In this document: in pieces, positions 3,056 to 40,569 of the stretch
Position numbering within the stretch: the first letter of the stretch is position 1
How the letters are laid out: every line of letters begins with the position of its first letter
NCBI GenBank assembly: GCA_021731045.1
Contig: JAKFYE010000015.1
Span: 79,058-143,057, forward strand
Direction: 5' to 3'
Length of the DNA stretch: 64,000 nucleotides
Source: Bdellovibrionales bacterium
GTDB taxonomy: Bacteria > Bdellovibrionota > Bdellovibrionia > Bdellovibrionales > JAKFYE01
Notes under the pieces: generated by a model
The model's input: the letters and a program-made list of their open reading frames with translations, nothing else
Told to the model about the DNA's origin: nothing
The model's database searches: none
Program-made: the position numbers and the translations under genes

Positions 3056-4681
3056 GCTCCAACCCATCTCAAATTTAAGGTGAGTTTCGATTCTCTGCTT
3101 TTGTTTTGAAATTTCGGCTACTGACCAACCGAGTTCGTGCGAAAACACTTCGCAGATTTCATCGATAAACGGAAGGCCGTGATCTTTTCTTGCAAGAAAT
3201 AGCGGCGCCCGACGAATATAAAAATCATCCAGATGGATGCACATTGTTTCGTGAATGGCATAATAAGCTTCCATTTGCCAAATAGATTTATGACCACGTG
3301 CTTTTGCAATCTCTAAAATATCTAAAGCTTCAAGTCCATGTCGCTCTACCAAAAAAGCAACCTCTTCGCTTGAACGCTGATACTTTTCCGCAAAGCTTGC
3401 GACTTGTATTCGTGATCTATTGAAATTTTCAACCGAGGCTTTAGGATTAAGGGGTATTTTCGTGTTTGATTTTGAAAAACGCGCACGATCTTCTATAGAA
3501 AATTGATTGAGTGCGAAGTCCACAATTTCTTGTGCCATATGACGATAGGTCGTGTACTTTCCGCCCGCAACGAAAGTAAAGTTGCGTGGATCTGTCCATA
3601 TTTTATGTTCGCGACTTGTTTTGCCTTCAGAAGAAGACCCATCAAAAACTAACGGGCGCACTCCCGAGTAAGAGGCTACAATATCTGCACGCGTGATGCG
3701 CGCGCCCGGAAAGTATTCTTCAATAATACTTAAAATATATTTTACATCGGCTTCTTCGGTGTGAACCTGTGCGGGATCACCGGGATAGTCTGTATCCGTA
3801 GTTCCAATAATAATCATTTCGTGTCGAGGAATTCCAAAAACAATTCTATTTTTAGCATCATCCACCATAACGACGGCCTCTTTTAATGGTAGTCGTTTAC
3901 GATCAAACGTAAGGTGAACACCCTTTGTTGGTCTTAGTGTTTTTTTCCAATCTCTGAGAATGTCCTCACCAAAAATATCGGTCCAAGGTCCTACTGAGCC
4001 TACGAAGTGTTTGGCCTTGAGTGAAAATTCTTTTCCGCTCAATTGATCGCGGCACACAAGAGCCGAAACTTTATTCTGCTGATATTCAACGTTTCCAACT
4101 TGAACATAGTTTGCCGCGACCGCCCCGTTGCCAAAAGCCGAACGATGCGTTTCGAGCGTGAGACGATCATCATCCATATAGGCATCGTAATACGCATACG
4201 CACCTTCGAGTTCCATCGGCCGTAACAAAGGTAAACGGCTGAGGGTTTCTTCTCGCTCTAATCTTTCGTGCATTTCGGGAGCATCAAACATCGAAAGGAC
4301 ATCGTATAAAAACATTCCGAGTCCCATTTTAAACATACCCACCTTTGATGATTCATAGAGTGGAAGTACAAATTTGAGTGGATGTACTAAGTGTGGCGCG
4401 ATTTCAAAGAGCGTTTTACGCTCAGAGAGGGCTTCAAAAACTAAACCGAATTCTAAGTTTTCTAAATAGCGTATCCCGCCATGAATGAGTTTACTAGAAC
4501 GTGAACTCGTACCAAAAGCAAAATCACGAGCTTCGACCAGCGCCACTTTCATACCGCGACTGGCGGCATCCCGAGCGACTCCGGCGCCGTTAATTCCGCC
4601 CCCGACGATGGCGAGGTCAAAAGTTTCACGACTCATACGCTCAATATTTTTTTGCCGCTGAAAAACAGAGAATGGCTTCAT
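3050..4681 (-). CDS. glpD: FAD-dependent glycerol-3-phosphate dehydrogenase
   Basis: DLAIVGGGINGAGVARDAASRGMKVALVEARDFAFGTSSRSSKLIHGGIRYLE. Confidence 0.93.
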   Translation of the reverse strand: MKPFSVFQRQKNIERMSRETFDLAIVGGGINGAGVARDAASRGMKVALVEARDFAFGTSSRSSKLIHGGIRYLENLEFGLVFEALSERKTLFEIAPHLVHPLKFVLPLYESSKVGMFKMGLGMFLYDVLSMFDAPEMHERLEREETLSRLPLLRPMELEGAYAYYDAYMDDDRLTLETHRSAFGNGAVAANYVQVGNVEYQQNKVSALVCRDQLSGKEFSLKAKHFVGSVGPWTDIFGEDILRDWKKTLRPTKGVHLTFDRKRLPLKEAVVMVDDAKNRIVFGIPRHEMIIIGTTDTDYPGDPAQVHTEEADVKYILSIIEEYFPGARITRADIVASYSGVRPLVFDGSSSEGKTSREHKIWTDPRNFTFVAGGKYTTYRHMAQEIVDFALNQFSIEDRARFSKSNTKIPLNPKASVENFNRSRIQVASFAEKYQRSSEEVAFLVERHGLEALDILEIAKARGHKSIWQMEAYYAIHETMCIHLDDFYIRRAPLFLARKDHGLPFIDEICEVFSHELGWSVAEISKQKQRIETHLKFEMGWSS

Positions 4682-24079: not shown

Positions 24080-25636
24080 ATGATTAATTGGGACGAGTTT
24101 GAGCACATACACGTAATTAAAAAATTGAAAGAAATTTTAAGCTCATGGTGGAACATCGATACTCTTTTTACAGATGATCGTGGTCATCTTAAAGGATTCG
24201 ATAAAGACAAAAAATTACTTGTGAATCCCGCCGTCAAATTTTTGATGGACAAACCTACAACGCACGAATCACTTGCCGAGCTCGTACAAAAAGCGACCGA
24301 AGACCTAAAAGGCTCAGGCCTAGGTTACTCGATTCGTCGATGGGACGCTGGCGGATTTGATGCTGCGATTTTTCCGATTGTAATCGAAAATGATTTTGTC
24401 GGTACCGTGGTGGCACTCGGATTTTTTAAAGACAATGCAAATCCGTCTCGTCTTAATGAAGTGCGCGACCGCCTCGCGGCTTTTGGCGCTTCGAGCGACT
24501 TAATTCAAGGCTGCTTAAATAAAATTCCGTTTATGAAAGATGAAGATCGTCAGCATTTTACTGAACTTTGTGAGCTTGTGGCTCAGGAAGTTGTAACGCT
24601 TCACCTTGAAATTACTAGCCGTGAAGACCGTATCAGCGAGTTAAATAAAGAATTGGGCACACGTTACAAATACGACAACATGATTGGTAAATCAAAACCA
24701 ATGCAAGATATGTATTCGCTCTTAGATAAAATTAAATCTGCCGAGAGCACCGTTTTGATTCAAGGTGAAAACGGAACAGGTAAGGAGTTGATCGCTAAAG
24801 CGATTCACTACAATTCTCCTCGTAAAGACAAAGCTTTTATTATTCAAAACTGTTCAGCCTTTAATGACAATCTTTTAGAGTCAGAACTTTTTGGTCACGT
24901 AAAAGGATCGTTCACCGGCGCGATTAAAGATAAAAAAGGTCTTTTTGAAATGGCCGACAAAGGAACTTTCTTTTTGGATGAGATTGGAGATACCTCTCCG
25001 ACAATGCAGGTAAAACTTCTTCGCGTCATTCAAGAGGGCACTTTCTTGCCTGTGGGCGGAACAGAATCTAAACGCGTCGATGTAAGAATCATCGCAGCAA
25101 CGAACCGTGATCTTAAAGAGATGGTTGAAAAAGGAACATTCCGAGAAGATTTGTATTATCGCTTGAATGTGATCAATCTTCGCGTGCCGCCACTTCGCGA
25201 GCGCAAAGAAGATATTCCACTATTGATCGAGTTCTTTTTAGACCGTGCAGCTCAAGGCGCCGTACATCCTAAAAAAATCATGACGAAGAGAGCTTTAGAA
25301 AAACTTTTTGATTACGCCTTTCCGGGTAATATTCGTGAACTTCAAAACGAAATTGAGCGCGTGGTCGTATTGGCCGGCGCCGAACAAAAAATTGCGGCCG
25401 ATATGCTTTCGGCACGAATTTTAGAAACGGGCGACAAAACGAAAGTTCAAGGCGCTCGTGTTCACGGAAAACTTAAAGATGCCTTGGAAGAACTCGAACG
25501 CGAGATGATCAAAGATGGTCTTCGTCGCACGGGTTGGAACAAATCCAAACTAGCAAAAGAACTCGGCATTTCCCGCGCCGGCCTTATCATGAAGGTCGAA
25601 AAGTACGGCCTCGATAAACGAAAACTTCTTCGCTAA
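24080..25636 (+). CDS. Sigma-54-dependent transcriptional activator (bEBP), N-terminal sensory domain, AAA+, Fis-type HTH
   Basis: GENGTGKELIAKAIHYNSPR, ESELFGHVKGSFTGA, GTFFLDEIGDTSPTMQVKLLRVIQEG, RELQNEIERVVVLA; C-terminal HTH SKLAKELGISRAGLIMKVEKYGL; start chosen at MINWDEF (RBS aagga). Confidence 0.93.
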   Translation: MINWDEFEHIHVIKKLKEILSSWWNIDTLFTDDRGHLKGFDKDKKLLVNPAVKFLMDKPTTHESLAELVQKATEDLKGSGLGYSIRRWDAGGFDAAIFPIVIENDFVGTVVALGFFKDNANPSRLNEVRDRLAAFGASSDLIQGCLNKIPFMKDEDRQHFTELCELVAQEVVTLHLEITSREDRISELNKELGTRYKYDNMIGKSKPMQDMYSLLDKIKSAESTVLIQGENGTGKELIAKAIHYNSPRKDKAFIIQNCSAFNDNLLESELFGHVKGSFTGAIKDKKGLFEMADKGTFFLDEIGDTSPTMQVKLLRVIQEGTFLPVGGTESKRVDVRIIAATNRDLKEMVEKGTFREDLYYRLNVINLRVPPLRERKEDIPLLIEFFLDRAAQGAVHPKKIMTKRALEKLFDYAFPGNIRELQNEIERVVVLAGAEQKIAADMLSARILETGDKTKVQGARVHGKLKDALEELEREMIKDGLRRTGWNKSKLAKELGISRAGLIMKVEKYGLDKRKLLR

Positions 25637-25719: not shown

Positions 25720-25833
25720 GGGGACGGAGCTCTTCTAAGCTACTATAATTCTTAGGGTTTTTTGTCTGTTTGAAGCCTGCTTTTTTTCGGACACGTCGAT
25801 TGGCGCACCACTTTATTTGTGAGCTCCGTCCCC
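25720..25833. repeat. Inverted pair of GGGGACGGAGCTC motifs (REPIN-like)
   Basis: ggggacggagctc at 25720-25732 and gagctccgtcccc at 25821-25833; flanks cctcaattt / gaattggagg extend the inverted similarity. Confidence 0.7.
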
Positions 25834-25954
25834 GAATTGGAGGGAGGGCTTTTTTTGGCGGGTGTGTGGTAATTTTTTTAGTCTTAGTCTTCTACTAGAC
25901 ACTCTGCCCCTAATGAAAGGCTTGTGTTTTCAATAGCTTAAGTTCGTTTTTTTT

Positions 25955-25969
25955 GGGCACATCCCTTGC
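25955..25969 (+). promoter_or_regulatory. Putative sigma-54 (-24/-12) promoter
   Basis: (t)GGGCAC-atccc-TTGC with exact N5 spacing, upstream of the degenerate bEBP gene. Confidence 0.55.
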
Positions 25970-26021
25970 GATAGGCATCCAACATACTGAGAGAGAGTTC
26001 CCTATTATCTGGAGAGAAGTG

Positions 26022-26975
26022 ATGAGTCAGGCAACAAGCAAAAAAGACAGAATGTTTCAGCGTTTGGCAAACATGATGAAAGAGCGTTTTGATACGAACA
26101 TCACGTTTACGGATTTTACTTCACGCCTTCGCGTTGCGGACGTAAAGGCGGTTACGGCGGTTCAGCGCAATCCGATGGCTTCGTTTATTGCGACCGACAA
26201 AGACATGGTTTTGCCGATTCGTACCGAATCGCAACTCTACGGCTTTATCACTTTATTTGATGGAATTTATTTGAAAGAAGCCCAACTTGAACAAATTCGT
26301 CAGGTCACAGATCTCTTATTAACAGAAAGTTGCCTGCTCGAAGATAAAGCGCAACGCATGAAAGTTGTCGAACACCACATTAAAACTTTTAATTCGCTAG
26401 AAGACATTATCGATCTTCGAACAAAAATGAAGGATCAAGAAATTAATTTTATAAATCCCGAAATTTCTATTCCCCACGAAAATCTTGATTCGGTTTTTCC
26501 AATTTTGATTGAAAGCCACTCGATCGAGGACGCGCAAGAACTTGCGGTTGAGATTCACCGTACATCTAATCGCACTTCGTTTTTAACTTACGAAAGTTAT
26601 ATCGCGAGTGAACTCACATCAGTTGAAAAAATAAAATCGTTGGGTCCGATTACTTTATTTATTCCTAATCTCAGCGAAGTTCCGCTCGACATGCAAATGA
26701 CGCTTGAAAGTTATTTGCATTTTTCTTCGCGAACGACTCATCACCCCCGCATCATTTGCGCGGTTCAAGAAAATCCCGATGAACTTGTAAAAACGGGCGA
26801 GTTTCACGCCGGTCTTTATGAGAAAATTCGTATGGCTCGCGTAAAACTTCCTCCGAAAGGAACAAGTTCTATGACGATAGAAGAGATGATGGGATTTTTT
26901 ACGACCGAATATAAAATGGAAACTTCGAACGAGAGACACCTTTATCTTGTAAATCCGAAGGAACCTTCTCACTAA
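26022..26975 (+). CDS. Degenerate sigma-54 activator-like protein (pseudo-bEBP), no Walker A/B, no GAFTGA, no HTH
   Basis: PILIESHSIEDAQELAVEIHRTSNRTSF...GPITLFIPNLSEVPLDMQMTLESYLHF...PRIICAVQENPDELVKTGEFHAGLYEKIRMARVKLPP aligns by motif order with bEBP AAA+; start chosen at MSQATSKKD. Confidence 0.7.
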   Translation: MSQATSKKDRMFQRLANMMKERFDTNITFTDFTSRLRVADVKAVTAVQRNPMASFIATDKDMVLPIRTESQLYGFITLFDGIYLKEAQLEQIRQVTDLLLTESCLLEDKAQRMKVVEHHIKTFNSLEDIIDLRTKMKDQEINFINPEISIPHENLDSVFPILIESHSIEDAQELAVEIHRTSNRTSFLTYESYIASELTSVEKIKSLGPITLFIPNLSEVPLDMQMTLESYLHFSSRTTHHPRIICAVQENPDELVKTGEFHAGLYEKIRMARVKLPPKGTSSMTIEEMMGFFTTEYKMETSNERHLYLVNPKEPSH

Positions 26976-27041
26976 ACTTTGGTCGAGTTTCACGTAACAA
27001 AATGGCGTGACACAGGGTCGTCTTTTTGCGACCCTGAATAA

Positions 27042-28082
27042 ATGAACGCGCTTCCGAAGCAAGTCCTTGAAAAAGAGACTTATTTTTCATTTTTAGCATC
27101 TGCATTATCTTCAACGGAAGTCGAAGTTATTCCTCTTGCGGGAGACGCGTCAGCACGTCGCTACTTTCGTGTCGTAAAAGATCAAACCTCGTGGGTTCTA
27201 ATGGTTTGGGAGCCCTTCGTCGACGATGACAACTACCCTTTCTTAAGTGTGCTCAATCATTTCAAACGCAACGGCGTGTTGGTTCCTGAAATCGTGGCGA
27301 AATCGCCGGCTCAAGGCCTCGTTCTATTAGAGGATCTTGGAGATCTCACTCTTGAAAGAAAGTTTTGGGAAAATCAAAATCAAGAGTCTGCTTATCCTTT
27401 TTACGAACAGACCATCGATGAACTCATCAAAATGCATTATCAATCCACCCAAGATAAACGGACGTGCACGGCTTTCAACATTATGTTTGATACTGAAAAA
27501 TTCATGTGGGAGATGAACTACGCCAAAACACATCTCTTAGAAGGCGTATGTAAAATTAATTTTTCTGATAATGAACTTGCGACTCTCGATTCATGTTTTA
27601 GAAACATATGCGAAACTTTGCATAAAGAACCTAAGTTTATTTCTCACCGTGATTATCACTCCCGAAACGTGATGATTAAATTTGGCAAAACGCGCATCAT
27701 CGACTTTCAAGATGCTCGTCTGGGGCCAATTCAATATGATTTGGTCAGTCTACTCAGAGACTCGTATGTGAATTTAGGCGACGAGATGGCCGAAAAATTA
27801 ATTGAGTATTATCTATCGCGCAGAAGCGAGTTTAATCTTCCCAAAATTCCTCACGATCGTTTTTTTGATATTTATGAACTGCAAACAATTCAGCGTTGCT
27901 TTAAAGCGTGTGGAAGCTTTGCAAGTTTCTTTAATGCTCGAGAAGACCGACGTTATTTAAAATATATTTCTAAAACTTTACAAACGGTAAAGCAAAGTCT
28001 TGAACTCTTTCCGCAATACAAGCCGTTCTTACAAATTTTGAACGATCACGGCGTGTTGGATAAACAGTACGATTCCCTATGA
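27042..28082 (+). CDS. amgK: AmgK-like N-acetylmuramate/N-acetylglucosamine kinase (APH fold)
   Basis: GDASARRYFRV, FISHRDYHSRNVMIKFGKTRIIDFQDARLGPIQYDLVSLLRDSYV; adjacent murU. Confidence 0.82.
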   Translation: MNALPKQVLEKETYFSFLASALSSTEVEVIPLAGDASARRYFRVVKDQTSWVLMVWEPFVDDDNYPFLSVLNHFKRNGVLVPEIVAKSPAQGLVLLEDLGDLTLERKFWENQNQESAYPFYEQTIDELIKMHYQSTQDKRTCTAFNIMFDTEKFMWEMNYAKTHLLEGVCKINFSDNELATLDSCFRNICETLHKEPKFISHRDYHSRNVMIKFGKTRIIDFQDARLGPIQYDLVSLLRDSYVNLGDEMAEKLIEYYLSRRSEFNLPKIPHDRFFDIYELQTIQRCFKACGSFASFFNAREDRRYLKYISKTLQTVKQSLELFPQYKPFLQILNDHGVLDKQYDSL

Positions 28083-28912
28083 AGGCTATGATCCTCGCCG
28101 CAGGATTAGGAACGCGGCTACGTCCACTCACCAATACGGTACCTAAACCCGCTGTACCGCTATTAAACATCCCGATTGGCTATTGGCCGCTTTATCATTT
28201 GTTACGCGCTGGAGTTGATGAGCTCGTGGTGAACACCCATTACCTTCCCGAAAAAGTGGTCACCCTTTATAAATCCGTACAAGGCCGAGTTAAAACTTTG
28301 AACTTCACGCTCGAAGAAAAAAAAATTCTTGGGAGCGGTGGCGGAATTGGTTTTGCACGAGAGTATTTGCAAAGCTCTCGAAGCTTCGCGACTCTTTTTA
28401 AATCTTTGTACAAACCGAAAAATTCAAATAACAACAACGGCGCATTTTGGGTTGCGAATGCCGATGAGATTTTCTTACCTGAAGACCCCGCTTTGTTTTC
28501 TAAGGTTTGGACCCAACATCAAGTCCAAAACAATCTTGCAACTCTAGTTTTGGTTCAACACCCAGATGTCGGCACAAAATTTGGTGGCGTCTGGTGCGAC
28601 TCGCAAATGAATGTTCGTGGTTTCGGAAAAGCGTCTCCCGCTCCTGGGCTAAAGCCTTATCACTTTACCGGCTTTCAAATTTTGAGCTCGAATGTCTTTA
28701 AATATATTCCCCCAGGAGAATCAAATATTTTTTATGATGTTCTCGTTCAAGCCCTTTCCAAAGGAGAACGCGTGGGGTCTATCGTGGATAACGGTCTTTG
28801 GTTTGAAACAGGAAACATCGAAGACCTTAAGCTTGCCACGGAACATTTAAATCTGTTGAAAGAAAAAAACCCCACCCTCCAATCCTTAATTAAAGAATTC
28901 GCCCTTAAATAG
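28079..28912 (+). CDS. murU: MurU-like N-acetylmuramate-1-phosphate uridylyltransferase
   Basis: MKAMILAAGLGTRLRPLTNTVPKPAVPLLNIPIGYW; overlaps the amgK stop. Confidence 0.8.
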   Translation: MKAMILAAGLGTRLRPLTNTVPKPAVPLLNIPIGYWPLYHLLRAGVDELVVNTHYLPEKVVTLYKSVQGRVKTLNFTLEEKKILGSGGGIGFAREYLQSSRSFATLFKSLYKPKNSNNNNGAFWVANADEIFLPEDPALFSKVWTQHQVQNNLATLVLVQHPDVGTKFGGVWCDSQMNVRGFGKASPAPGLKPYHFTGFQILSSNVFKYIPPGESNIFYDVLVQALSKGERVGSIVDNGLWFETGNIEDLKLATEHLNLLKEKNPTLQSLIKEFALK

Positions 28913-28975: not shown

Positions 28976-30103
28976 TTGAATATGAATGTTCTTGGAATCA
29001 TGAGCGGTACAAGTATTGATGGTGTCGATTTAGTTTTGTGTCGCATTCAAAAATCTCCGCTCACATGTAAGTTGATCGGATCTGTCAGTTTTAAATTTCC
29101 GTCCTCGTTACAAGATGAACTTAAACTTGCCGCCAAGCACGAGTTGCGTGTGGATCGTTTGGCCCTCGTTCATCATGAGCTCGGCCGTTTTTATGCTGAA
29201 ATCTGCGCTAAAACAGTTCGTGCAAAAAAATGGAAAGTTGATGTTGTGGGGGTTCATGGACAAACGGTGTTTCATGCTCCGCCTAAAGCCACGTTGCAAA
29301 TTGGTGAAGCCTCGTACTTACGTGCGGTACTGGATGTTCCGGTTGTTTGTGATTTTCGAACTTTGGATTTAGCTTTGGGCGGCCAAGCTGCGCCACTTGC
29401 GACGCTCTTTCATCAAAAAATTTTGGCGCCGCTAGCTTTGAAACTTATCAAGAAAAAATCGGCTCCCGTTGCCATTCAAAACTTAGGTGGGATTGGCAAC
29501 GTTAGTTATTTTAACGGCAAAACGTCTTTTGCTTTTGATACCGGCCCCGCAAACATGTTGATTGACCTTGCGTGCTCACATCTGACAAACAAAGAATTCT
29601 CGTTTGATAAAAATGGTGCGTTTGCCACCAAAGGAATCCCGGCTCCGGGGTTAATCAGCAAGTGGATGAAACACGAGTATTTTTCTCGTCGGCCACCAAA
29701 AAGTTGCGGCCGAGAAGAATTCGGAGAATCTTTTTTAATTGGCGCCTTGGGCGATCTCGAGGCTTCTTCCAAAAGTGAGAATAAACTTTCAGATACGCTC
29801 GCCACCCTGACAGAATTTACAGCGGTCTCTCTGGCCGACAGCTACAAGCGCTATTTGCCGCAGCCTCCTGCCGTCGTTGTTCTCTGTGGTGGCGGAGCAA
29901 AAAATCCGTATCTAAAGTCTCGCATTCAATATCATCTTCCGAAATCGCAGGTGTTAACATCTCAAGATTTAGGTTGGCCGGCAGAAACTATTGAAGGCGC
30001 CGCCTTTGCTCTGCTCGCCGCATTTCGTATTTGGAATATCCCTTCAAACTTACCGCAAACAACTGGCGCAAAAAAGGCCGCTTCTCTCGGAAAAATTCTT
30101 TAA
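28976..30103 (+). CDS. anmK: Anhydro-N-acetylmuramic acid kinase
   Basis: LGIMSGTSIDGVDLVLC, VGVHGQTVFHAP, IQNLGGIGNVSYF, FDTGPANMLID. Confidence 0.93.
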   Translation: MNMNVLGIMSGTSIDGVDLVLCRIQKSPLTCKLIGSVSFKFPSSLQDELKLAAKHELRVDRLALVHHELGRFYAEICAKTVRAKKWKVDVVGVHGQTVFHAPPKATLQIGEASYLRAVLDVPVVCDFRTLDLALGGQAAPLATLFHQKILAPLALKLIKKKSAPVAIQNLGGIGNVSYFNGKTSFAFDTGPANMLIDLACSHLTNKEFSFDKNGAFATKGIPAPGLISKWMKHEYFSRRPPKSCGREEFGESFLIGALGDLEASSKSENKLSDTLATLTEFTAVSLADSYKRYLPQPPAVVVLCGGGAKNPYLKSRIQYHLPKSQVLTSQDLGWPAETIEGAAFALLAAFRIWNIPSNLPQTTGAKKAASLGKIL

Positions 30104-33089: not shown

Positions 33090-33254
33090 GGGGACGGAGC
33101 TCCTTCTTCAGATCAAAAAAACAAATCAGTTTAAATTTCGGCTTTTCAACTTTGAAAAAACACGGACAAAAAACATCAATCAATTCCGCATCTTGTGTGA
33201 GCTCCGTCCCCCGCCAGGCAAATTAATTCAATATCTTTCGCGAGCTCCGTCCCC
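33090..33254. repeat. Three GGGGACGGAGCTC motifs (one forward, two reverse), REPIN-like
   Basis: 33090-33102 forward; 33199-33211 and 33242-33254 reverse complement. Confidence 0.7.
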
Positions 33255-36313: not shown

Positions 36314-37426
36314 ATGACAACAACGAGGCAAAAAGTCGGTCAAGCGACAATGATCGGAATTTCTGGAAAGTCTCTGACCGAGGGCGAAAAGAAATTTATT
36401 GTTCAAAACAATATCGGCGGCATCACGCTTTTTTCTCGCAACATCGAAACGCCCCAACAATTACACAAACTCACGACCGAAATCCAAGCTCTTCGCAATC
36501 AACAGCCTGATAAAGCACCATTACTTATTGCAATCGACATGGAGGGCGGCCGAGTCGCACGCCTCAAGGCCCCCTTTACCCAATGGCCCCCACTAAAAAA
36601 AATCGGCGACCTCGACTCCGCCAGCATCGCCTTCAAATTCGCCGAAAGCATGGGGACGGAGCTCCAAGCCATCGGCGTAAATTTAGATTTTGCCCCGTGC
36701 GTAGACATTTTAACCAATCCCCAAAATATTTTGATCGGGGACCGCGCCCTCAGCACGGACGCCGAAGCAGTTGGAAAACTCGCGAGCGCTTTGGTGCGTG
36801 GGTATATTAAATCTGGCGTTATCGCGTGTGCCAAACACTTTCCGGGTCATGGCAACACGATCATCGATTCTCATTTTGATTTGCCCGTCGAAGATGTTTC
36901 ACTTGAAACCTTAATTGCGCGTGAGCTCTCTCCCTTTAAAAAAACATTTCGCGCACGACTCGATATGGTGATGACCGCACACATTCTGTACAAAAATATT
37001 GATGCCGAATGGCCCGCAACACTTTCTAAGAAGATTCTGAGTGAGATTTTGCGCAAAGAATGCGGATATCGCGGGCTCGTGATTTCGGACGATCTTGACA
37101 TGAAAGCTTTACGAAAGCTCTATGAACCAGGAGTCATTGCGGTTCGCGCGTTAGAAGCAGGAATAAATATTCTACTTTATTGCAACGAAGCCGAAACTCC
37201 AGAAATGGGGCTAGACGCTATCGACAAAGCTTTAGCTGACAAAAGAATATCGATGGATGCCGTAGAAAATAATTACCAGCTCATGTTAAAACTGAAGAAG
37301 TCTAAAGTAAAACAAATCGACCCACTCCCCTTGCCAGAAGCCGCTCGCATCATCGGCCACCCCGATCACCTCGCGCTCTCCAAAGCCATCGCCTCCGGCC
37401 AAATCCCCGAAGGCATGACCACCTAA
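36314..37426 (+). CDS. nagZ: Beta-N-acetylhexosaminidase, GH3 (NagZ)
   Basis: AIDMEGGRVARL, CAKHFPGHGNTIIDSHFDLP, GLVISDDLDMKAL. Confidence 0.92.
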   Translation: MTTTRQKVGQATMIGISGKSLTEGEKKFIVQNNIGGITLFSRNIETPQQLHKLTTEIQALRNQQPDKAPLLIAIDMEGGRVARLKAPFTQWPPLKKIGDLDSASIAFKFAESMGTELQAIGVNLDFAPCVDILTNPQNILIGDRALSTDAEAVGKLASALVRGYIKSGVIACAKHFPGHGNTIIDSHFDLPVEDVSLETLIARELSPFKKTFRARLDMVMTAHILYKNIDAEWPATLSKKILSEILRKECGYRGLVISDDLDMKALRKLYEPGVIAVRALEAGINILLYCNEAETPEMGLDAIDKALADKRISMDAVENNYQLMLKLKKSKVKQIDPLPLPEAARIIGHPDHLALSKAIASGQIPEGMTT

Positions 37427-37432
37427 CAAACC

Positions 37433-38473
37433 AGGGACGGAGCCTAATTTACGAAAACTCCTGGCGATTTATAACTTTCCAATATAGCCACTTTTCAATT
37501 TCATTTAAATTTATAAATTGATCGATATTACGCGTATGTAATTTTAAAAAATTGGATTATTTTATATCCGTTATTTAAAAATCAAGCACAAACACTAAGT
37601 TCGCTAGACTAAAAAACAAACTTATCTATTAATATCAATGTAGATACTGCTGCTTTTTTAAAATGTTACTTATTTTCTATCCAGGTTTTAAATCGTTTTT
37701 TGTGGCTAACGCATAAATTATTTTAGAAATACGTCGCATCTTCCAGAGTTGAGATCCTATAAACGGTTGAAAAAATTCTGTGCGGTCTTGCGTTTGCTCT
37801 AAATATTTTAAAAATAATGTTCTATACTTGTGTTGCCTTTCTCTCTCCGTTGTACCAAGTTCCATATACCATTCGGGAGTCGTCAGTAGTTTTGTGAACT
37901 CGTCTTTAATTCCATAAGCGTAAAATCTGTAACTTGAATACTTATTAAACTTCAGTTTTCTTTCAATATATTTACCAGCTCTTATGGGATTTGCCTCAAC
38001 ATAAAAGTGGACCCTCATTTGATGTTCTGAATTTTCAATAAGTGGTGTTTTTGGTCGACCTTCCGCTACCTTTCCTGATCTCTTATGGATTCTGTTATAT
38101 CTTGCGCCAAATAGTGCGTGGGCTTGGCGTAAAAAATCTGAAAACTTTCGGCTTCCTTGATCAAAACTACTTACGTTATGAAAGTGATTATCCATACATG
38201 CATACGCGTGAATTTTTACACAACCGTCTTTAGCATGAGAATTTAGAGCTTCTTTTACACAAGTTAAATAGAGAGATTTCATTAAGTCCGTTTGAAGATA
38301 ATTTTCGCGATTATGGCATCGCCAATATTGGTGCACCCAACCCTGGGATTCATAAAGCTGCAATGAACGAGGAATACGCATAATAAATGTGTAAGCTAAA
38401 CTGAAGCCAGATTGAGATCAAAAATAGCGCCTGTTGACGATTTATGAGCACCGGTATACCGAGCTCCGTCCCC
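37433..38473. repeat. REP-like motifs flanking the RAYT gene in inverted orientation
   Basis: agggacggagcc near 37433-37444 and gagctccgtcccc at 38461-38473. Confidence 0.65.
37677..38381 (-). mobile_element. REP-associated tyrosine transposase (RAYT, Y1/HUH superfamily)
   Basis: HUH motif in HAYACMDNHFHNV; VHFYVEANPIRAGKYIERKLKFNKYSSYRFYAYG typical of Y1_Tnp proteins. Confidence 0.88.
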
Positions 38474-38721: not shown

Positions 38722-40569
38722 GTGGAACAAAGACAACGGTTTTTTACTATTTCAAGAAATCAATACCAGCTTATTTTCGCCTGCATCATAGTCACACTTT
38801 CAGCACACGCTCAAATCCATACACTACCATCAGAAAAAGTGGAATCAACACCAATAACAACGTTTTCTGAAGAAACGGCCGCTTGGCCAACGCAAAGATA
38901 CGATTCGGAACTATTGCAATCATCGAACCTTTCAACTTTTGAAACATTAAATCGTGTGCCCGGAATCGAAACTCGGGGGAGCTTAAGTAAAGGCTCACCC
39001 GCAATTACCTTTCGTGGTTCCACAAAGGCCAATCGTAGCTTGCTTTTATACGACGGCATTCCGCTCAACTTAGCAGACGGAATAGGCGCTCAAGAATTAT
39101 TAATTCCGCGCGAGGCCCTTGGTAGCATACAAATTTTAAAAGGTCCTTCGGGTGTATACTACGGCGCAGGCGCAATGAGCGGAGGAGTCAACTTTCAACC
39201 TGAATTTTATACCCGCTCTCGTCTTCGGGCAACGGCCGGTAGCTTCGGACAAAAAGGCGCATTCGCAGCAGCAAGCTTAATAAATGACGAACGTAATCAG
39301 GTTCAACTTACGGGTTTTACTGAATCTCTCGATGGCGATTACCCTTATTTTTCTCCGACATCTGGACAAAACGGAACGCGTACACGTACAGATACTCACA
39401 CTCAACGCGGAACTTTTTCGGGAAATCATATACTTTCTGGTTACAGGTTAGGTTATCGAATTTTACACGCGCAGGAGTTTGGCTCCGTCCCCGGCGCGAT
39501 AGGGTCGCCCGATCCGACTTCGGCTCAAAAAACGGGCGGTATTTATGCCTTTAAAGTCAGCAAGGCTTATGGACCTCGTTGGGACACTAAAGTTTACGCT
39601 TCGAATGTACAAACTCAAAGTCATTTTCTCACAGAGAAAACTCAAGTCTCTTATGACTCCCGCGCATCCGAAACCGTGACCGGCTTTGTTACTTCCTATA
39701 ATGAAGGTGCAGAATTACGTCTTCAACTTTTAGGCGACTACAAAGAGAGTTCGCTTTCAACTGTCGCGATTTCGAATAAACGCGAACAACAGGCCGAACC
39801 CGGACTTCTAGTGTCTTTTCCGTTCGCGGATGACGCCGTTATGCAGGCAGGTGTTCGTTATTTAGCTTCTTACGGAATTTTGACTAAGGCGTTGGGGGTG
39901 GTGCGAACATATGAGAACAAAAAATTTTGGGTTACTTATGCAGAGGGGTTTCGAGCTCCGTCCCTGTCTGACAAGTATGCGGAGTATACGACGTTTCATG
40001 GAAATCACGATTTGAAGCCTGAGGTTTCTACTCAGATTGAGGTTGGCGCCTCTCAACAAAGTCGCAAACATGATGATAGTTTTTTAAATCATTTTAATTC
40101 TGAGATTTCTGTTTTTTCAACCAGCTACGACAATCTCATTACAACGACTTCCGATTTTTCTACGCTTACGAACAAAGACTTTGTGCGTATTTTTGGAGGA
40201 GAAGCCGCCGCAAGTTATCCTTTTGATCTTTGGGATATCGGTCTTGCCTACTCTCACGTCAATGCGAAGTTTAATAACTTGCCGTTAGCCCTAACAACGG
40301 AGCACAAACTTCAAGCCTCCCTCGCACATTATTTTGGACCCATCGTTTTTGAATTACAAAGCACGAGTTGGATAAATTATTATCGCACAGCCTCGAATGA
40401 AGATAAATCAAACTGGAACACATACGACTTTAAAGTTCGCACCATCGGCCTCACAGATTGGATTTTTTCGGCCGGTGTTTACAATATGTTTGATGAACCG
40501 ATCGAGTATATGACGGGATATCCTGAACCTCGAAAGCGATTTACTGCATCTTTAGAAAGGTTGTTCTAA
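38722..40569 (+). CDS. btuB: TonB-dependent vitamin B12 receptor
   Basis: Plug domain NRVPGIETRGSLSKGSPAITFRGSTKANRSLLLYDGIPLN; GFRAPSLSDKY; GTG start with aaggag RBS; riboswitch upstream. Confidence 0.88.
   Translation: MEQRQRFFTISRNQYQLIFACIIVTLSAHAQIHTLPSEKVESTPITTFSEETAAWPTQRYDSELLQSSNLSTFETLNRVPGIETRGSLSKGSPAITFRGSTKANRSLLLYDGIPLNLADGIGAQELLIPREALGSIQILKGPSGVYYGAGAMSGGVNFQPEFYTRSRLRATAGSFGQKGAFAAASLINDERNQVQLTGFTESLDGDYPYFSPTSGQNGTRTRTDTHTQRGTFSGNHILSGYRLGYRILHAQEFGSVPGAIGSPDPTSAQKTGGIYAFKVSKAYGPRWDTKVYASNVQTQSHFLTEKTQVSYDSRASETVTGFVTSYNEGAELRLQLLGDYKESSLSTVAISNKREQQAEPGLLVSFPFADDAVMQAGVRYLASYGILTKALGVVRTYENKKFWVTYAEGFRAPSLSDKYAEYTTFHGNHDLKPEVSTQIEVGASQQSRKHDDSFLNHFNSEISVFSTSYDNLITTTSDFSTLTNKDFVRIFGGEAAASYPFDLWDIGLAYSHVNAKFNNLPLALTTEHKLQASLAHYFGPIVFELQSTSWINYYRTASNEDKSNWNTYDFKVRTIGLTDWIFSAGVYNMFDEPIEYMTGYPEPRKRFTASLERLF

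Follow-up and report, generated by a model that had tools for sequence, protein, structure and literature searches.

A degenerate sigma-54 activator paralog behind its own sigma-54 promoter, a candidate modulator of the adjacent intact activator in Bdellovibrionales

The gene at 26022-26975 of the window (the whole stretch of 64,000 nucleotides of Bdellovibrionales DNA that was analysed) may encode a non-catalytic tandem-paralog partner of the adjacent intact sigma-54 activator (bEBP). It would be a feedback modulator induced by sigma-54, probably an anti-activator, and we give this reading about an even chance. The protein is probably a brake or a sensor for the working bEBP because the motor parts are all lost, yet the gene is kept intact throughout the lineage under a promoter of the matching type.

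Results

The coordinates are collected in Table 1. The earlier note had described the upstream bEBP as complete, and its domains and motifs are indeed intact (Walker A GENGTGKE, GSFTGA, Walker B FFLDEIGD). A bEBP of this type is present as a single copy in 126 of 142 genomes of the order (E<=1e-150) and in 325 of 376 across the phylum (E<=1e-140), which points to an unstudied core regulator. RpoN is encoded in the genome that the window comes from.

Table 1. Features around the degenerate activator paralog in the window
Feature	Position	Strand	Basis or remark
Intact sigma-54 activator (bEBP)	24080..25636	+	N-terminal sensory region, AAA+, lid, Fis-type HTH
Candidate conserved upstream element GTTTTCAATAGCTTAAGTTC	25926..25945	+	Family motif TAATTTCAA-NN-ACTTA
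Sigma-54 -24/-12 promoter GGCACATCCCTTGC (GGCAC-ATCCC-TTGC)	25956..25969	+	Consensus match
Shine-Dalgarno-like GGAG ahead of ATG 26022	26011..26014	+	Read from sequence
Degenerate bEBP paralog (pseudo-activator), 317 aa	26022..26975	+	Open frame, Pfam, profile comparison, AlphaFold, Foldseek
GAF-like N-terminal domain and long helix (residues 1-124)	26022..26393	+	AlphaFold, Foldseek
Degenerate AAA+ core (residues 160-278)	26499..26855	+	No Walker A, Walker B DE replaced by PN, GAFTGA segment deleted, arginine fingers replaced by H and K
AmgK-like MurNAc/GlcNAc kinase	27042..28082	+	Pfam APH; NCBIfam AmgK 145.7 bits against strict cut-off 550
MurU-like nucleotidyltransferase	28079..28912	+	4-base overlap with amgK
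AnmK-like anhydro-MurNAc kinase	28976..30103	+	Homology match

The 26022 gene belongs to a family found directly 5' of amgK in the order, called slot genes here. As the earlier note had read it, the protein keeps the order of the AAA+ landmarks and has lost the functional residues, and both observations hold. RIICAVQENPDELVKTGEFHAGLYEKIRMARVKLPP pairs with RIIAATNRDL...LRVPP of the neighbouring bEBP (BLASTP, E 1e-4), and a profile-profile comparison of the slot family with the bEBP gives a probability of 95% (E 2e-8, 146 columns). Residues 160-278 match Pfam PF14532 (Sigma54_activ_2) with 30 bits against a gathering cut-off of 25 (E 6.9e-7), and the score for PF00158 (Sigma54_activat) is just under the gathering cut-off. 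PF14532 is common to the 26022 protein and 16 of its relatives among the 46 aligned members (E<=0.01, best E 1.4e-11), a likeness at the level of a domain family only.

The Walker A motif GxxxxGK is found in none of 57 slot proteins of the order and in all 18 neighbouring bEBPs, and the counts for GAFTGA are 0/57 and 17/18. The acidic pair of Walker B and the arginine-finger positions are replaced as listed in Table 1, and no conserved Arg occupies the finger positions across the 46 aligned slot proteins. The lid is absent from the 26022 protein and no C-terminal Fis-type HTH was detected in it with Pfam. Only one aligned member (L088/P0003, 414 aa) has HTH_8, and the same protein is the only one with both lid and HTH; Walker A and GAFTGA are already lost there. 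The sequence supports a non-catalytic 26022 protein.

The predicted structure has the AAA+ fold, the lack of which would have counted against the reading in the earlier note. The AlphaFold model (46 sequences) has a pLDDT of 82 and a pTM of 0.53, and its best PDB matches in Foldseek are the sigma-54 activators DmpR, NtrC1, PspF and FleQ, with E about 1e-5 and probability 1.00 for the sigma-54 AAA+ domains of NtrC1 and PspF. Residues 5-121 modelled alone reach a pLDDT of 91, and their best Foldseek matches are GAF domains (KdpD, Nlh1, NifA, CodY), all weak with E 0.03 or worse. The match between the N-terminal domains of the slot protein and the bEBP is weak (hhalign 19%; E 0.002-0.1). The GAF-like domain goes beyond the earlier note, as does the linked amgK-murU operon.

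The promoter-like element that had been assigned to the gene is a sigma-54 -24/-12 site, an identity absent from the earlier note, and 52 bases lie between its end and the ATG. The strict form GGCAC-N5-TTGC, which is the established consensus as it stands, occurs in 16 of 54 slot upstream regions compared with 0 of 1208 control windows of the same size from the same loci. A relaxed form, picked after looking, occurs in 43/54 and 15/1208 respectively. The C of the -12 element is missing from most relaxed sites, and because many of them read TTGT or TTGA their activity is less certain. No sigma-54 site was found upstream of amgK or of the bEBP in the same order loci. G005 and G131 are rearranged genomes, and in both a lower-scoring sigma-54-like site is still found 5' of the moved slot gene. 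The amgK locus of G005 (L109), which has no slot gene, keeps a strong sigma-54 site (TGGCATGCTCCTTGCT at 3383-3398 in amgK orientation) preceding a different upstream ORF.

The motif TAATTTCAA-NN-ACTTA was learned by EM on 39 order loci and beats shuffles in eight independent loci outside the class, where none of 200 shuffle sets scored as high. It resembles the IHF consensus. The element in the window may be an IHF site, but it could instead be an activator site. Exact palindromes gave no enriched enhancer dyads upstream of the slot promoters, and neither the dyad search nor the EM motif search identified an enhancer site for the bEBP. A REP-like element, GGGGACGGAGCTC, is repeated in nine copies (<=2 mismatches, 0.64 expected) at 25720-25732, 25821-25833, 33090-33254, 36652-36664, 38461-38473, 39480-39492 and 39953-39965, and one inverted pair of it sits between the bEBP and the slot gene.

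The amgK-murU pathway recycles cell-wall sugars. The names amgK, murU and anmK are given by homology and context because the matches are under the NCBIfam equivalog cut-offs, far below for AmgK and MurU and a little below for AnmK. A perfect hairpin (CAGGGTCG-N8-CGACCCTG, 27013-27036) without a trailing T run lies directly 5' of the amgK start and is a possible attenuator or processing site.

Sixty order loci were gathered around amgK, which is found in 124 of 142 order genomes; many of the genomes are fragmented assemblies. Nearly all of the loci have an ORF, mostly of 250-400 amino acids, directly 5' of amgK, typically preceded by an intact bEBP that is 65-79% identical to the 24080 bEBP. 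The exceptions are two contig ends (L071, L082), one unrelated ORF (L109) and one inversion (L114). The slot-family profile matches almost all order genomes, and a search with the 26022 protein alone as query returned no related loci. The mean column identity is about 16% in the 46-member alignment.

Such fast sequence change, together with lengths between 134 and 414 amino acids, is what might be put forward for a decaying pseudogene or a chance ORF. This reading is highly improbable, and conservation and purifying selection refute it: no broken frames were found among the order loci, the promoter is conserved, the fold is confident and dN/dS is well under 1. The least saturated pairs give 0.067 (L100/L101) and 0.128 (L115/L116) for the slot gene, where the bEBP of these pairs gives 0.00-0.04. 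On these rates the slot gene is under purifying selection, much weaker than that on the bEBP. Some slot genes seemed to contain internal stops; in the two that were checked by coordinates (L096, L102) these were match overhang beyond the true stop. The presence of orthologs in almost every genome of the order, the open frames, dN/dS of about 0.07-0.13 and the AAA+ fold support a non-catalytic protein that is retained under selection, in line with the earlier note. Its contrast with a decaying copy has to be modified, since the paralog apparently lost parts one after another and yet was kept.

The slot gene does not always travel with the same neighbour. Because it is missing together with amgK in two genomes that retain the bEBP (L235/G064, L236/G035), it could today have a role confined to the amgK operon. 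A local sensor or adaptor would bind a cell-wall sugar or intermediate with the GAF-like domain and regulate AmgK/MurU, or its own operon, without touching the bEBP. Loci where the slot gene stays with amgK while the bEBP lies elsewhere (L088, L092, L095, L113) point the same way, as do the slot forms f2 (134 amino acids) and f11, in which only the GAF-like domain is left. However, the dead AAA+ core is conserved as well, the slot gene stays beside the bEBP in G005 with amgK on another contig, it is inverted in G131 (L114/L239), and in other classes the partner adjoins the bEBP without amgK. Such a local role is rather unlikely, in our judgement. One genome (G032) has two amgK copies (contigs C75 = L096 and C76), each after a slot gene or its match.

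The amgK-murU linkage was seen only in the class of the window, among the loci seen. In other classes (f14, f15, f20 and f22) the gene after the bEBP is a paralog of 301-389 amino acids. GGCAY-N5-TTGC is present just upstream of all eight of these partners or at the 5' end of the called ORF, and almost never in bEBP loci without a partner (f13, f17, f27 and others). None of the eight has GAFTGA, five keep GxxxxGK, and all have an HTH that is identical to that of the adjacent bEBP in 15-21 of 26 positions, compared with 3-18 of 26, mostly 5-14, for unrelated bEBPs. This old tandem layout, and an HTH nearly matching that of the bEBP in other classes, lend indirect support to the proposal of the earlier note that the protein is a partner of the neighbouring bEBP.

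These partners lose GAFTGA and retain the HTH, like known GAFTGA-less bEBPs (PMC10274813), and might suggest a sigma-70-type DNA-binding regulator resembling the GAFTGA-less NtrC or TyrR. For the 26022 protein this is very unlikely and largely refuted by the missing HTH, which is undetectable there and in all but one of the 46 aligned members and is found only in L088 and in the f14, f15, f20 and f22 partners.

In a tree of the AAA+-lid-HTH region the partners group with L088 in a single clade (100/99) next to that of the bEBP; this sister grouping has moderate support (80/74) and L088 is a long branch. A topology with L088 (the G003 partner) among the f21/g14 small proteins is rejected (p-AU 0.003). 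Placing it with the bEBP is rejected weakly (p 0.038), and placing all partners among the f21/g14 small proteins narrowly escapes rejection (p 0.056). Taken alone, AAA+-core profiles do not separate the order slot from the other small GAFTGA-less bEBP-like family (24 versus 30 of 54; 37.8 versus 41.5 for the 26022 protein). A search with the bEBP alignment gave mostly unrelated bEBPs among the matches listed. A profile of the GAF-like domain from the order slot proteins matches the f15 partner (E 4e-8), an independent link between that partner and the slot protein of the order. Elsewhere in genomes of the phylum there is a second small (266-325 aa) GAFTGA-less bEBP-like family (L229, L230, L223-L227, L237), where a Walker A-like motif is kept and most members have an HTH.

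The 26022 gene looks like an ancient bEBP paralog that lost its parts stepwise, because the out-of-class partners are fuller and L088 keeps lid and HTH. The simplest history would be one bEBP duplication early in the phylum with loss of the sigma-54 loop. The sigma-54 promoter would then have been gained or kept, with more losses in the lineage of the window.

Discussion

With the 26022 protein as a feedback modulator, a bEBP, most simply the adjacent one, would fire at the promoter, and RNA polymerase would make the partner first and AmgK-MurU after. The partner, with a GAF-like sensory or dimerisation domain and a dead AAA+ core, would associate with the bEBP via GAF or AAA+ contacts. Because it has no nucleotide site, arginine fingers or sigma-54 loop, it would damp the bEBP and give negative feedback, perhaps under the control of a ligand, for instance a cell-wall sugar. 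A dead subunit produced upon sigma-54 activation would be well suited to such feedback. In the fuller relatives, which still carry a bEBP-like HTH, the same damping would come from competition for one and the same enhancer. We infer the action of the bEBP on this promoter, the physical contact, the negative sign and any ligand.

Mixed rings of bEBP and pseudo-subunits might instead tune the output upward, as HrpR and HrpS do together. Hetero-complexes and co-activation are known for paralogous bEBPs (PMC4145663, PMC9542535), and mixed rings would be consistent with the fold and the ancestry. However, the known positive contributions are removed with the nucleotide site, the arginine fingers and the sigma-54 loop, and we regard a co-activator subunit as unlikely, a little more so than the local sensor.

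A wider reading is a widespread module in which the tandem twin of an activator has turned into a dedicated sigma-54-induced inhibitor, with stepwise loss of parts and the promoter kept, and thus a dedicated pseudo-bEBP family. It is put forward tentatively, at somewhat less than an even chance. The losses could possibly, with similar reserve, have run from the GAFTGA loop to the nucleotide site and arginine fingers, then to lid and HTH, and last to the AAA+ core. Intermediates that survive across lineages form a natural parts-removal series, so that which bEBP part a regulatory partner needs is directly testable. The arrangement also suggests that sigma-54 controls MurNAc recycling in relatives of predatory Bdellovibrio.

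Among kinases and proteases, inactive copies that regulate their active relatives are a familiar phenomenon. In the open literature searched, no report was found of a dedicated dead-copy regulator of sigma-54 activators, no described system that pairs an intact bEBP in tandem with a pseudo-bEBP driven by sigma-54, and no paper on this gene pair in Bdellovibrio. HrpV, which restrains an activator, is not known to be an AAA+ paralog. The restraint by HrpV is described for the system of HrpR and HrpS in Pseudomonas syringae (PMC4145663). HrpR/HrpS and the VnfA paralogs (PMC9542535) are described as working activators, and HrpR/HrpS and VnfA1/VnfA3 share with the present pair that paralogous bEBPs bind each other (PMC4145663, PMC9542535). 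In none of HrpR/HrpS/HrpV and VnfA1/VnfA3 is a dead paralog combined with a sigma-54 promoter of its own. MphX, a repressor of about 290 amino acids of the DmpR-type activator MphR, is of similar size and restrains bEBP output, but it belongs to COG4313, AAA+ ancestry has not been described for it, and it is no paralog of a bEBP (PMC3063778). The NtrC proteins of Caulobacter and Rhodobacter are GAFTGA-less bEBPs that bind DNA and act at sigma-70 promoters (PMC10274813). They share with the 26022 protein the deletion of the loop that contacts sigma-54 (PMC10274813), but the latter has in addition lost Walker A, arginine fingers, lid and HTH, and a sigma-54 promoter precedes its gene.
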